This document shows, one piece after another, positions 55,914 to 64,000 of a stretch of DNA of 64,000 nucleotides. Source of the stretch: Sphingobium xenophagum NBRC 107872 (GTDB lineage Bacteria; Pseudomonadota; Alphaproteobacteria; Sphingomonadales; Sphingomonadaceae); NCBI RefSeq assembly GCF_000367345.1, contig NZ_BARE01000012.1:1-64000 (forward strand), in the 5' to 3' direction. The position numbers were made by a program, and so were the translations under genes. Position 1 is the stretch's first letter; each line of letters opens with the position of its first letter. Under the pieces are notes generated by a model. That model saw only the letters and a program-made list of their open reading frames with translations, was not told the DNA's origin and searched no databases.

Positions 55914-56231
55914 ATGCCCGAATTGAATGTCATTACCCGTGACGGCGCACAGCAGACGATCAATGCATCCGCCGAAACCTCGGTAATGGAGGCCATACGA
56001 GATTCCGGTTTCGACGAGTTGCTGGCGCTGTGCGGCGGCTGCTGTTCCTGCGCGACATGCCATGTCTATGTCGACCCGGCCTTCGCTCAGTCCCTGCCCC
56101 CGGTAACGGACGACGAAAGCGATCTGCTGGATGGATCGCCGCACCGCAACGACTATTCGCGCCTGTCCTGTCAGGTCATGATGACGGAAGCCCTCTCGGG
56201 CCTCACGGTCACCATCGCTCCTGAAGACTGA
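55914..56231 (+). CDS. [2Fe-2S] ferredoxin, adrenodoxin/putidaredoxin type
   Basis: 105 residues. The cluster ligands are Cys40, Cys46, Cys49 ([14 protein letters not shown]) and Cys86 (RLSCQVMM), the C-x5-C-x2-C...C spacing of vertebrate-type ferredoxins. It would pass electrons to the P450 at 31.8 kb or to the Rieske protein at 57.5 kb. A cognate NAD(P)H ferredoxin reductase was not found in the window. It follows the second sulfotransferase gene on the same strand. Confidence 0.95.
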
Positions 56232-56823: not shown

Positions 56824-57471
56824 GAGGGCAGCGAGCAGGAAGGCGGCCAGCCTGTCCGCATGTTCGGCGGCATGGACATCATCCACTTCCCGCCCGGCCC
56901 CCAGCCTTTCCTGCATCGGCACGGCGCAGAAATAATAGCCGACCCCCTGCACCAGCAGCGCCATCAACGCGGCCGTCGATAACCCATGAACCGGCCGCTG
57001 GAGCCGCACCGCGTCGAGCAGGCCGTCGAGCCGTCGCTGGAACGGCAGCACGAATTGTTCGACGATATGGTCCAGCCGCCAGGTCGAACGGCAACCTTCC
57101 ACATTGGTCAGCGCCACGATGTCGCCGTTGTCCGTCGCCCACAGGCAGAAACGCTGGATCAGGTGGCGCAGCCGAACCTCGGGATCGGCCGGTTCGTCAA
57201 AGGCGGCTTCGACGAAGGGCGAGGCCTGCGCCATACGCCAGTCGACCGCGCGTATCCACAGATCCTCCTTCCGGCCAAACCGGACATTCAGCAGATTGTG
57301 GCTAACCCCGAGCCGCTTGGACAGGTCGCGCAATGTCGTAGCTTCGTAGCCGCGCTCAGCGAAGGTCGCGAATGCAAGGGCCAGCAGCTTGTCCTCGTCT
57401 AAGGCATGGGCGGCATTGAGGGCGGGACGGCCACGAGTGCGCTGGGGACGGTCGAGCATCAGCATGTCCAT
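56806..57471 (-). CDS. TetR/AcrR-family transcriptional regulator
   Basis: 221 residues. The HTH is TLRDLSKRLGVSHNLLNVRF followed by GRKEDLWIRAVDWRM; the N-terminal QRTRGRPALN is a typical basic arm. The C-terminal domain (RLRHLIQRFCLWATDNGDIV) is the effector region. It is divergent from the Rieske gene, and a TGACA/TGTCA inverted repeat lies between them, so it most likely represses the Rieske-LLM group. Confidence 0.93.
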   Translation of the reverse strand: MDMLMLDRPQRTRGRPALNAAHALDEDKLLALAFATFAERGYEATTLRDLSKRLGVSHNLLNVRFGRKEDLWIRAVDWRMAQASPFVEAAFDEPADPEVRLRHLIQRFCLWATDNGDIVALTNVEGCRSTWRLDHIVEQFVLPFQRRLDGLLDAVRLQRPVHGLSTAALMALLVQGVGYYFCAVPMQERLGAGREVDDVHAAEHADRLAAFLLAALLPPVA

Positions 57472-57484
57472 AGTGAAAAGACGT

Positions 57485-57501
57485 TGACATATAAATTGTC
57501 A
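57485..57501. promoter_or_regulatory. Candidate TetR operator in the divergent promoter
   Basis: TGACA (57485-57489), 7-bp AT spacer, TGTCA (57497-57501). It overlaps a TTGACA -35-like box at 57484-57489 reading toward the Rieske gene. Only 66 bp separate the two divergent start codons, so a regulator bound here would affect both promoters. Confidence 0.55.
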
Positions 57502-57537
57502 TCCGTCAATTTAATAGAAAGGAGAGTGGATAGCGCT

Positions 57538-58476
57538 ATGAGTCTCGATTCTGATCTTTGGTGGGCTGTCGCCCGGTCCGAGGAAGTGACCTCCCAAAAG
57601 CCGCTTTCCGTCGATATCGGCGATCAGCCGGTGGTGCTGTGGCGCGACAATCAGGGTATCGCCCGCGCGCTGGAGGATCGCTGCCCGCATCGTCGCGCGC
57701 CTCTGTCGCTCGGCTGCATCCGCGACAACGGCCAGATCCAGTGCGGCTATCATGGCTGGAGCTATGACGGTGAAACCGGACGGCTCAAAGAAATTCCGAA
57801 CATGAAGGATCAGCAGAAATTTCCGCCGATCTACAAGGCCAATGCCTTTGCGGTAACCGAACAGGCCGGCTTCGTGCGGGTCTGCCTCAATCCCAAGGCG
57901 CAGGCGCCGCTCAGCGCCGACCCGAAATATACCTATGTCGGCACGGTCAACGTCAGTTGCAGCCATCAGGAATATTTGAACGCTCTCTATGATGACCCCA
58001 GCCTGATCCTGTCGGTCCGCGGTGTCCGCTTCAGCCCCTATCTGATGTCGGAACTGCACGAGGAAAACGGCCTGCTGGTGATGGAGCGCAACTGTCAGTG
58101 GCATCCGCTGCATTGGCCGTCGCATTTCGTGGCTGAATTTCCGCTCACCCTGCTGACGCGAACCCATCCGCTGACCGGCGAAACGCAACTGACGTTGCGA
58201 GACGACCAGTTCAACGATCTGCTCCACGCCGTCCTCTCGCCCGTGCCTTCGGCGCGGGGGGTGACCGCCGTCCGCTGGCGGGCCGAACTGGGCGTGCGCC
58301 ATCCGGGCGTGCGCGGCGCCGTGCTGCGCGGGATCAACCCGCTGTCGGTGCACGCGTCGATCGACGGATCGAAATTGCGCGCCACCAAGCCCACCGTTTC
58401 GCTGCACGGCGAGGATTTGCGCAAGGCGATGCTGGAAACCAAGCCAGCGACCCATGATCAGACCGTAGCGGCCTGA
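57538..58476 (+). CDS. Rieske oxygenase-like subunit: [2Fe-2S] site kept, mononuclear iron site lost
   Basis: 312 residues. The Rieske domain is complete: Cys49-x-His51 (EDRCPHRRAPLS) and Cys69-x2-His72 (QCGYHGWSYDG). In the catalytic domain the place where NxxDxxHxxxxH should stand reads YLNALYDDPSLILS (residues 146-159). The Asp is Tyr151 and the two histidines are Pro154 and Ser159. It can therefore carry electrons but probably cannot bind the mononuclear Fe(II). The ATG at 57538 is used; AAGGAGAG is somewhat far upstream. The next gene supplies the missing motif. Confidence 0.88.
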   Translation: MSLDSDLWWAVARSEEVTSQKPLSVDIGDQPVVLWRDNQGIARALEDRCPHRRAPLSLGCIRDNGQIQCGYHGWSYDGETGRLKEIPNMKDQQKFPPIYKANAFAVTEQAGFVRVCLNPKAQAPLSADPKYTYVGTVNVSCSHQEYLNALYDDPSLILSVRGVRFSPYLMSELHEENGLLVMERNCQWHPLHWPSHFVAEFPLTLLTRTHPLTGETQLTLRDDQFNDLLHAVLSPVPSARGVTAVRWRAELGVRHPGVRGAVLRGINPLSVHASIDGSKLRATKPTVSLHGEDLRKAMLETKPATHDQTVAA

Positions 58477-58490
58477 AGGAGGAATTGAAG

Positions 58491-59564
58491 ATGCTCGAAA
58501 CCGCCGATCGTCCCGTTTCGCACGACGATAATTCCGCCGCGCCATCGGGTGGCAGCCCGATCGCGCTGAACGCCATCAACCGCTGGGTGCCGCATAATCT
58601 GGTGATGCGCGACAGCTGGTTTCCGGTAGCGCATGATTATTCCGTGACTGGCAAGCCCGTCCGTCGCGCCGTCTATTCGCACCCCATCTTCCTGTGGCGC
58701 GACAATGGCGTCGCCGTGGCGAGCGAGTTCCATCCCAATGAGCGGATCACCCGCGACAAGAGCGAATTCACCAACGCCCAGGGCCGCTATCCGGTGATGG
58801 AGCATTATGGCGTCGTCTGGGTATGGTTCGGCAATCCGCTGGCCGCCGATCCCCGCCATTTGCCCAGCCTGCCCTTCCTCCCGCCCAAGGGCGGCCTGCC
58901 GCGCCACATGACCGCGACCGTCCGCTTTGAAAGCTCAGCGCCAATCAGCTTGGAAAACCTGATCGACCTGACCCATGCCGATTTCCTGCACGCCGACGTC
59001 GTTGGGGACGAACGGTCGGACAGCGAGACGGTGGAAACCTTCTACGACAGCGAGACCGTCACGATGGTCCGCACCTGCGTCAACAAGTCGGTCGCGCCGG
59101 TGATGAAGTTCTTCAGCGGCATCAAGCAGCCGACCCAGAATGTGCGGCAGGTGATCCGCATCTATCTGCGTTCGCACTGCGCCATCGCCTATGGCCGGTT
59201 CAGCCCCGGCGACGATGTGCCTCTGTTCCACCCCTGCACGCCCGAAACGCGGGATCGTACGCGGATGGAAATGGTCATGAACACGTCCAATGCGGGGTTG
59301 ATGTTCCGCCATGTCATGCCCAAGGCGGGCTACAAGGTGTCGCGGCAGGACAGCTATATGACGTCCCCGCAAAGCCCGCGCTACATGCGCCACACCGACC
59401 GCAAGGATTTGCACAGCAAGTTCGACCAGGCCGGGCAGCGCTATCGCATGGCGATGATGGAGTTGGCGGACCGGCAGGCGAAGGGCGATTTCGACTATCG
59501 TGACAATGTCAGCGCTGATTGCAGCGACATCATCGGCCTGCGCAAGGAACTGTTCCAGTTCTGA
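58491..59564 (+). CDS. Rieske oxygenase-like subunit: mononuclear iron site kept, Rieske site lost
   Basis: 357 residues from the ATG at 58491 with AGGAGG eight bases upstream. The N-terminal fold follows a Rieske domain (FLWRDNGVAVASEFHPNERI, then RYPVMEHYGVVWVWFGNP), but the CxH and CxxH ligand pairs are absent and the loop is shortened. The catalytic domain keeps a perfect NxxDxxHxxxxH in LENLIDLTHADFLHADV (Asn156, Asp159, His162, His167). It is 14 bp after the stop of the complementary subunit. Together they would form a working oxygenase with shared centres; this is inference from motifs. Confidence 0.88.
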   Translation: MLETADRPVSHDDNSAAPSGGSPIALNAINRWVPHNLVMRDSWFPVAHDYSVTGKPVRRAVYSHPIFLWRDNGVAVASEFHPNERITRDKSEFTNAQGRYPVMEHYGVVWVWFGNPLAADPRHLPSLPFLPPKGGLPRHMTATVRFESSAPISLENLIDLTHADFLHADVVGDERSDSETVETFYDSETVTMVRTCVNKSVAPVMKFFSGIKQPTQNVRQVIRIYLRSHCAIAYGRFSPGDDVPLFHPCTPETRDRTRMEMVMNTSNAGLMFRHVMPKAGYKVSRQDSYMTSPQSPRYMRHTDRKDLHSKFDQAGQRYRMAMMELADRQAKGDFDYRDNVSADCSDIIGLRKELFQF

Positions 59565-59581
59565 TCTGATCTCCCCCATGG

Positions 59582-59614
59582 GCGGACGGCAGCGTCCGCT
59601 CTTTTTTCTTTTTT
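59582..59614 (+). terminator. Intrinsic terminator just before the LLM gene
   Basis: GCGGACG (59582-59588), GCAG loop, CGTCCGC (59593-59599), followed by TCTTTTTTCTTTTTT. This is a canonical Rho-independent terminator for the Rieske genes. Its T-tract runs straight into GGAGA, the ribosome site of the next plus-strand gene at 59624. Confidence 0.88.
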
Positions 59615-59623
59615 GGAGACGCC

Positions 59624-60700
59624 ATGTCCACGCTCGTCAATGCCGTCGGCGGCGAACGCCGCTGGTGGGCCGTCATGCCTACCCTGCCCGCCTCCGCCAT
59701 GGCGGGGATCGGCCAGCAGATGGAACAGGCGGGTTTCGAGGGCTGCTTCTCGCTTCAGATTTACGGGCCGCCCTTCGTGCCGATGGCCGCCACCGCCGCA
59801 CTGACGAACAGCCTGAAGGTTGGCACGGGCGTCGCCATCGCGGGAACACGCAGTCCGGTGGAGACCGCTTATGCGGCGATGGATGTCGATCGCATTTCCA
59901 ATGGCCGTTTCGTGCTGGGCCTGGGCTCCAGCATCAAGAGCTGCGTTACGGGCATGTATGGGGAGCCGGAACGCAAGCTGCTGTCGCACCTGCGCGAAAG
60001 CATCAAGGTGATCCGCTATGTCATCGCCAATGCGCATAAGGGTCTCGATCCGATCGCGGGGGAATATTTCTCCGCCGATTTCGAAGAGATGATGCTGACC
60101 GCCCCGCCGGTGCGGGAGGAAATCCCGATCTGGATCGCAGCGCTGCAGGAAAAGATGACCGCGCTTGCGCTGGAGGTTGGCGATGGCCTGATGGTCCACG
60201 CGCTCTGGTCGGCCGCCTATACCAGGAGCCGACTGCCCTTCATCACCGATACGCTAGCGAAATATGGCCGCAAGCGCGAGGATATCGAAATCAACGCGTG
60301 GCCGTGGATCGCGGTCAACGACGACAAGCAGAAGGCGATCGACGATAGTCGCGCCACCGTTGCGGCTTATTCCGGCTACAAGGAATATGAACCCTTCTTC
60401 GAGGCGATCGGCTTTGGCGATCAGGCCCGCGCTTGCCAGCTCAGCCTGGGCGAGCATGGCGACATCGCAAAGGTCATCGGCAATGTATCCGACGAGATGG
60501 TCGAAGCCTTCGTAACCTGCGGGCCGGTGGACGAAGTGCTCGAAAAGATCGAGCCGTTCTGGGACGTGGTGGATTCACTCTGCCCGATGACGCCCTATCG
60601 GGATCTCACCATGGAGCAGTTGACCGACTATAATGCGGGCCTGTTCAAGCTGGTGGCGACCGCCCGGGCGCGCGCAGGCATGGTTGCCGAACCGGCGTAG
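59624..60700 (+). CDS. LLM oxidoreductase, F420-type (TIGR03617-like)
   Basis: 358 residues. The luciferase-like barrel includes GFEGCFSLQIYGPPFVPMAA, LKVGTGVAIAGTRSPVETAY, and NGRFVLGLGSSIKSCVTGMY; the C-terminal EIPIWIAALQEKMTALALEV and GDGLMVHALWS follow. This pattern matches the LLM group usually assigned to F420 in actinobacteria. It lies 59 bp after the Rieske pair, behind an intrinsic terminator. It may reduce or oxidise the oxygenase product. Confidence 0.87.
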   Translation: MSTLVNAVGGERRWWAVMPTLPASAMAGIGQQMEQAGFEGCFSLQIYGPPFVPMAATAALTNSLKVGTGVAIAGTRSPVETAYAAMDVDRISNGRFVLGLGSSIKSCVTGMYGEPERKLLSHLRESIKVIRYVIANAHKGLDPIAGEYFSADFEEMMLTAPPVREEIPIWIAALQEKMTALALEVGDGLMVHALWSAAYTRSRLPFITDTLAKYGRKREDIEINAWPWIAVNDDKQKAIDDSRATVAAYSGYKEYEPFFEAIGFGDQARACQLSLGEHGDIAKVIGNVSDEMVEAFVTCGPVDEVLEKIEPFWDVVDSLCPMTPYRDLTMEQLTDYNAGLFKLVATARARAGMVAEPA

Positions 60701-63531: not shown

Positions 63532-64000
63532 TCAAGATTTCAGTCTTGCTGGGCCGATATCATGCAGTTCAGCCAAATCTGCGGGCGTGTCGATGTCGAA
63601 GCCGAGAGCGGCCCGATCCACAATCGCCGCTCTCGGGCGCTGCTGCCTGTGGAGCATAAGGCTATCCCGTCCGAAAGCGAAGCGGAACGGATTGGCGTCC
63701 CGGAGCGCCACCGCATTTGTGCCGCGGCCGTGCCGATCCGGCGCAAAGGCGCAGCCGCGATCGTCAGCGGCAGCCAGCAGGGTGTGGACGTCCTGCACCG
63801 TCAGATGCGGCAAATCGGCATGGATCACGAGCAAGGGACGATTGCCCAATTGCGCCCGCGCGCGCGCCAACTCTGGATTGAGGCCGCCACCATTGTCGGG
63901 CAACCAACGCGATGGCCATTCGGATACTTCTGTCGGCGCAAGAAGATATAGGGAACCGATCGCATTCACATTGGACAGGCAGGTCATAACCCGCGCGGCC
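63532..64000 (-). CDS. cofC: CofC-like 2-phospho-L-lactate/phosphoenolpyruvate guanylyltransferase, 5' part cut by window end
   Basis: At least 155 residues; the frame continues past the window. The nucleotidyltransferase motifs are LLVIHADLPHLTVQDVHTL, CAFAPDRHGRGTNAVALR (PDRxGxGTN), FAFGRDSLMLHRQQ and LGFDIDTPADLAELHD. These are characteristic of CofC, which activates 2-phospholactate or PEP with GTP in coenzyme F420 synthesis. An internal ATG at 63987 exists, but the family is longer (about 200 residues), so the true start is probably outside. The partners cofD and cofE are not in the window. Confidence 0.88.
   Translation of the reverse strand, partial: AARVMTCLSNVNAIGSLYLLAPTEVSEWPSRWLPDNGGGLNPELARARAQLGNRPLLVIHADLPHLTVQDVHTLLAAADDRGCAFAPDRHGRGTNAVALRDANPFRFAFGRDSLMLHRQQRPRAAIVDRAALGFDIDTPADLAELHDIGPARLKS

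Follow-up and report, generated by a model that had tools for sequence, protein, structure and literature searches.

The DNA analysed here is a stretch of 64,000 nucleotides (the window) from Sphingobium xenophagum NBRC 107872, positions 1 to 64,000 of contig NZ_BARE01000012.1. It carries two adjoining genes, here called P1 and P2, whose products resemble the alpha subunit of a Rieske non-heme iron oxygenase, with the metal ligands of the two centres divided between them. Both lie on the same strand, 14 bp apart, and comprise the following elements.

57538..58476, plus strand: P1, putative Rieske subunit, 312 amino acids (Rieske domain and degenerate catalytic domain)
57682..57753, plus strand: predicted Rieske [2Fe-2S] ligands of P1, C49, H51, C69 and H72, kept in 121/121 proteins
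57982..58017, plus strand: P1 residues 149-160, the place of the iron motif, with Asn, His and His replaced by Ala, Ser and Val and Asp152 retained
58491..59564, plus strand: P2, putative catalytic subunit, 357 amino acids (metal-less Rieske-like domain and mononuclear-iron domain)
58599..58835, plus strand: P2 residues 37-115, Rieske-like scaffold without cluster ligands
58956..58991, plus strand: predicted iron motif of P2, N156, D159, H162 and H167 (NxxDxxHxxxxH, residues 156-167), kept in 121/121 proteins and in 53/53 loci that reach the region
59349..59351, plus strand: P2 D287, likely third iron ligand, kept in 121/121 proteins and 52/53 loci

Complementary metal ligands

An initial annotation of the window had described P1 and P2 as neighbouring subunits with reciprocal losses, and its coordinates, the P1 residues Cys49, His51, Cys69 and His72, the P2 motif at 156-167, the 14-bp gap and a divergent TetR gene were all confirmed when checked against the sequence. 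The only Pfam family above cut-off is Rieske PF00355 in P1, which has neither a flavin/NAD reductase nor a plant-type ferredoxin domain, and VanA_C PF19112 in P2. Homologue searches returned 399 proteins for P1 and 195 for P2, and the best 120 of each were used together with the window protein. Among these, each of the four Rieske ligands of P1 and each of N156, D159, H162, H167 and D287 of P2 is invariant (121/121), so that the complementarity, P1 being Rieske-only and P2 iron-only, is borne out. D287 is presumably the third iron ligand, as its family role suggests. D159, which we take to be the Asp that bridges to the neighbour's Rieske His in intact enzymes, is invariant even though P2 has no cluster ligands.

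The degenerate iron site of P1 had initially been read as Tyr, Pro and Ser in place of Asp, His and His. A profile alignment with 21 intact VanA-type oxygenases (alignment A5) instead matches A149 to the Asn, D152 to the Asp and S155 to the first His, and in a joint multiple alignment V160 falls on the second His. The earlier register was thus off by one and Asp152 is kept, but both His are indeed lost. Asp is retained at position 152 in 52/53 readable P1 rows, while His occurs at 155 in 2/53, at 160 in none and at both in none. As such, the reading that P1 has no iron site, with Asn and both His lost and Asp kept, stands as judged from the alignments. In two P1 rows (L013 and L018), a DxxHxxxxH string some 15 residues ahead of the iron-site position was read as chance.

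Confident structural models give both proteins the two-domain fold of a Rieske oxygenase alpha subunit, a Rieske domain followed by a helix-grip catalytic domain, yet P1 has only the Rieske ligands and P2 only the 2-His-1-carboxylate site. P1 is therefore modelled as a Rieske domain with a metal-less catalytic domain and P2 as the reverse. The nearest enzymes are oxygenases of the VanA/dicamba type: dicamba monooxygenase (3gke/3gb4/3gte; VanA-type) is a whole-chain fold match to both proteins but, unlike them, carries both metal centres on one chain. For P1, ten-residue means of the predicted local distance difference test (pLDDT) are at least 89 across residues 131-300, except for 62 at 191-200. 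Profile-profile alignment (hhalign) of P2 with intact oxygenases spans 286 columns, starting from the Rieske-like domain; that of P1 spans 151 columns only, so it is the predicted fold that relates its second domain to intact catalytic ones.

The pair in other genomes

We collected 54 loci from public genomes with peptide patterns that include N156 and D159. In 52/54 of them a full P1 gene immediately precedes P2 in the same orientation; in the other two (L030 and L051) the sequence ends where P1 would be, L051 keeping at that place an open reading frame (ORF) of 108 amino acids that matches P1 weakly (29 bits). All four Rieske ligands are readable in 51/52 full P1 genes, the remaining one (L047) having one ligand at an unread base. 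P2 motif counts refer to 53 loci, P2 of L053 being cut before the iron motif; the only locus without D287 (L037) appears frameshifted. No P2 of the 54 loci contains a CxH...CxxH string. Several loci are near copies, so these counts are not independent, and the most divergent one (L054) is 31% (P1) and 33% (P2) identical to the window. If translation is taken to begin at the earliest possible start codon, the reading frames of P1 and P2 share one or four bases in five distant loci (L043, L049, L050, L052 and L054). With complementary ligands invariant in homologues and loci alike, chance loss or sequencing error was ruled out.

The initial annotation had proposed searching for the pair in other genomes and asking whether both losses always occur together. 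Searching 397 genomes of the family to which the window belongs gave 13 matches of the P2 model (E <= 1e-20), spread over 11 genomes; beside each of the 13, in the same 11 genomes, lay a near-full-length match of the P1 model (E <= 1e-30). Both halves were thus present at 13/13 places, and no orphan P1 or P2 was found. That either gene is commonly found alone was rejected on this count. An earlier, overlapping draw of 298 genomes had 8 P1 and 8 P2 places in 6 genomes, again with 0 orphans. Further P1-model matches, 6 in the 397 and 8 in the 298 genomes, cover the N-terminal part only and end at model position 117-202 of 309 or 311; the six end at 126-202 of 311 in ORFs of 350-847 amino acids, and from their partial match they were read as ordinary oxygenases. 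In 398 genomes across the phylum, P2 was found only in the window's own genome. The pair is sporadic and rare overall, yet neither half was found alone. Two genomes (G049 and G237) hold two copies of the pair each, and the second copy in G049 scores far lower and looks like a distant type.

Pairwise distances in P1 and P2 are congruent: over 50 pairs the Mantel r is 0.954, a value reached in 0/2000 permutations (maximum 0.43). Four of the 54 loci were left out, three as frameshifted or cut (L037, L051 and L053) and one for want of P1 (L030). This supports one shared history of P1 and P2.

Natural fusions

A search with P2 of L054, the most divergent locus, returned 289 proteins, the best 120 of which were examined. 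NxxDxxHxxxxH and the third Asp are present in 120/120, and 118/120 have no Rieske motif, although five of the 120 are shorter than 300 amino acids, so that its absence from them tells little. The two with a Rieske motif, P0338 and P0343 (the latter named Candidatus Binatia by its source), are both 461 amino acids long. Their residues 9-121 match a P1-type Rieske domain (47% identity to P1 of L052) and residues 128-459 match the whole of P2, including the metal-less Rieske-like domain (44% to P2 of L054); Pfam finds PF00355 and PF19112. The order is thus Rieske, metal-less Rieske-like and catalytic iron domain, with the second domain of P1 absent, which is an oxygenase architecture unusual in its own right. 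As the two proteins are 76% identical, they are unlikely to be one assembly artefact. When P0343 was searched against plasmids, the best four records, two of them from Croceicoccus marinus, each matched in two pieces, P2 and an adjoining Rieske gene. That a P1-type Rieske domain is joined here to an entire P2 strongly suggests P1 as the electron source of P2.

Relation to known split systems

Oxygenases with divided metal centres have been described elsewhere. The chlorophyllide a oxygenase (CAO), a chlorophyll enzyme, of the alga Micromonas pusilla (MpCAO) is, like P1 and P2, one oxygenase in two polypeptide chains; work by Kunugi from 2013 is said to place the Rieske cluster on one chain and the mononuclear iron on the other. 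According to an excerpt of PMC9615114, the two chains are active in vitro with the reductase VanB, and a heterodimer or a trimer of dimers has been proposed. P1 and P2 differ in being bacterial, and the likeness lies in the two-chain organisation as described. For them, co-occurrence and the fusion are what suggest joint action of the two chains as in MpCAO.

The precedent named initially was NdmC/NdmD, and it is indeed in print: an excerpt of the review PMC10380055 describes NdmC as lacking a Rieske cluster and receiving electrons from the Rieske domain of the reductase NdmD, in an NdmCDE complex of 3:3:3. In this methylxanthine N7-demethylase (NdmC/NdmD/NdmE), as proposed for P2, the catalytic chain uses the Rieske domain of another protein. 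In NdmCDE, however, that domain sits on an NADH reductase, accompanied by a subunit resembling glutathione S-transferase (GST), whereas P1 has no reductase domain. Two GST queries matched no ORF in the 54 loci (E <= 1e-6; covered flanks), and NdmD-like queries matched only P1-type genes there. MpCAO may be a closer precedent than NdmC/NdmD.

NdmC-like genes adjoin Rieske genes in four genomes of the window's class (L097-L100). By Pfam, L100 has two tandem genes with VanA_C only (Rieske-less iron proteins), a Rieske-reductase gene and a GST gene, and L099 has a VanA_C-only gene, a Rieske-only gene of 217 amino acids in place of the reductase fusion, and a GST gene; L097 and L098 were classed by motif and length. 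Trees were built from 20/66 rows of alignment A3, 20/62 of A4 and 21/21 of A5, with 8 rows added in the second tree. P1 and P2 each form one clade. In the second, unconstrained tree P1 groups with the NdmC-like rows and one intact oxygenase (support 89) and not with P2, but P1 and P2 as a single clade are not rejected by the approximately unbiased (AU) test (p-AU 0.48; long branches, quick trees). One duplication followed by reciprocal loss, the subfunctionalisation raised initially, is thus a possible origin of the pair, though not one that the unconstrained tree displays. Holding P2 and the NdmC-like rows together is 25 log units worse, which counts against that grouping but falls short of rejecting it (p-AU 0.11). 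An oxygenase with both motifs (L092:1471-2460, minus strand) groups with the NdmC-like proteins and is perhaps near the ancestor of that split.

We found no split pair in these bacteria in the open-licence literature, although the print record elsewhere may hold one; excerpts of PMC8540908 and PMC8399759 concern ordinary Rieske monooxygenases only. To judge from the sequences, P1 and P2 are most likely a separate bacterial variant of a known but rare kind of two-protein Rieske oxygenase.

Genomic surroundings

Around the pair lie the following further features.

55914..56231, plus strand: [2Fe-2S] ferredoxin (PF00111), candidate electron donor to P1
56806..57471, minus strand: TetR-family regulator (PF00440), divergent from P1
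59580..59601, plus strand: terminator-like hairpin directly 3' of P2 (3 such sites against 1.6 expected in shuffles, weak)
63532-63987, minus strand: cofC-like gene, coenzyme F420 (98 bits against a cut-off of 105)

The initial annotation had put the pair under one promoter, a claim that gained no support from a simple consensus scan of 57400-59700, which gave no sigma-70-like site. The hairpin after P2 is weak evidence, compatible with a two-gene transcript. The intergenic region between the TetR gene and P1 (57480-57510) contains TTGACATATAAATTGTCATCCGTCAA with a TGACA-N7-TGTCA inverted repeat seen by eye, a possible TetR operator; the TetR regulator has a blastp match in 34/54 loci. Neighbouring genes encode, besides the ferredoxin, a SnoaL-like protein, a sulfotransferase-family protein, two LLM oxidoreductases and a flavoprotein that resembles 3-ketosteroid dehydrogenases below NCBIfam cut-offs. 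Adjoining genes vary from locus to locus while the P1/P2 pair persists.

A coenzyme F420 biosynthesis cluster and several LLM-class oxidoreductases also adjoin the pair: cofD, cofE, npdG and cofGH, all above cut-off, follow in the next 5 kb of the contig (L058:104-4814). F420 genes are likewise annotated in N. resinovorum and Croceicoccus plasmids; in the open-licence literature we found nothing to the point on F420 in sphingomonads.

Discussion

Taken together, P1 and P2 very probably form a single Rieske non-heme iron oxygenase in which both subunits are obligate, and ligands, co-occurrence and the fusion make such an obligate two-protein enzyme the most likely reading. Metal content, docking, electron transfer and activity are here predicted. 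The Rieske cluster of P1 would take up electrons, perhaps from the neighbouring ferredoxin; P1 would then dock on P2 with Rieske His72 meeting Asp159, and the electrons would pass to the mononuclear iron of P2 (His162, His167 and Asp287), which would activate O2 on the substrate. According to excerpts of PMC12445004, cluster and iron in Rieske oxygenases are about 12 Å apart between subunits and about 45 Å within one, and the oligomers are C3-symmetric; an excerpt of PMC9060491 gives a similar statement on the geometry. The intersubunit transfer to which the initial annotation appealed is thus in print, and since electrons cross between subunits in intact enzymes, placing cluster and iron on separate proteins is mechanistically easy. 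The invariance of D159 in a P2 that has no cluster suggests that the Rieske His of another chain docks there. The assembly we favour is a P2 trimer in which P1 can occupy the docking site next to each iron, left vacant by the emptied Rieske domains. This would give P1:P2 as 3:3 on the P2 trimer, in preference to an alternating ring, and is much less certain than the partnership itself.

The initial annotation had imagined an alternating heterohexamer, a ring of P1 and P2 in which each half serves the other. Such a ring agrees with intersubunit transfer as the family rule (excerpt of PMC12445004), both proteins are predicted to keep both domains, and the emptied domain of P2 stays conserved. 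However, the oligomers described in that excerpt are C3-symmetric, and over three positions two chains cannot alternate; a ring of six would call for new angles, and both fusions omit the second domain of P1. Reciprocal service is therefore not required, at least in the fusions, which lack this pseudo-catalytic domain, and with the fusion and the three-membered ring both pointing away from it we regard the alternating heterohexamer as quite improbable. It is also unlikely, though less so, that P1 acts as a freely diffusing Rieske-type ferredoxin, in transient contact with P2 to reduce it, and not as a structural subunit. P1 has a single cluster motif and lacks an active site, its weaker sequence matches include the Rieske ferredoxins AndAb and HcaC as well as 1fqt, and the fusion is also compatible with a tethered donor; yet with 312 amino acids and a second predicted domain P1 is unlike a small single-domain carrier of that type. 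That P1 and P2 are two degenerate genes side by side, unrelated and each with a role of its own, might be read from the other adjoining genes, which differ between loci, but invariant ligands, co-occurrence, congruent distances and the fusion make this extremely improbable.

Several observations weigh against the obligate P1/P2 oxygenase with P1 docked on a P2 trimer, or limit what supports it. Swapped conservation, with the metal-less domain relaxed in each protein, was considered and holds for P1 only, where near-invariant columns number 24/112 in the Rieske domain and 6/171 in the second. In P2 they are equally dense in the emptied (12/79) and the catalytic domain (28/191), with mean conservation of 0.70 and 0.77; the emptied domain is not relaxed and so has a role at which our reading only guesses. 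The second domain of P1 is retained too, full P1 genes encoding at least 295 amino acids in 52/52 cases. Since the peptide patterns contain N156 and D159, their invariance across the loci is partly by construction, and since only the first few candidates were scored per genome, weak orphans may have been missed. The ferredoxin has a blastp match in only 33/54 loci, which makes the donor uncertain, and the fusion is evidence of partnership, not of stoichiometry.

In summary, the observation on P1 and P2 holds, and its interest goes beyond the explanation first given for it. The annotated records consulted label one half 'Rieske protein' and the other 'oxygenase' or 'aromatic ring-hydroxylating dioxygenase subunit alpha', and are silent that neither could work alone by the known mechanism. 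The pair may, more tentatively, represent a widespread class of bacterial Rieske oxygenases, in which the catalytic chain has an emptied Rieske domain and each iron draws on a Rieske domain that comes from a partner or is fused on as an additional one. If true, such a class decouples the cluster from the active site, in an assembly unlike any solved member. Electron gating between Rieske subunits is hard to test when each chain holds both centres; with the centres on separate proteins, each could be changed, labelled or titrated alone, and the fusion, in the order Rieske, emptied Rieske and catalytic domain, offers a third arrangement for comparison.
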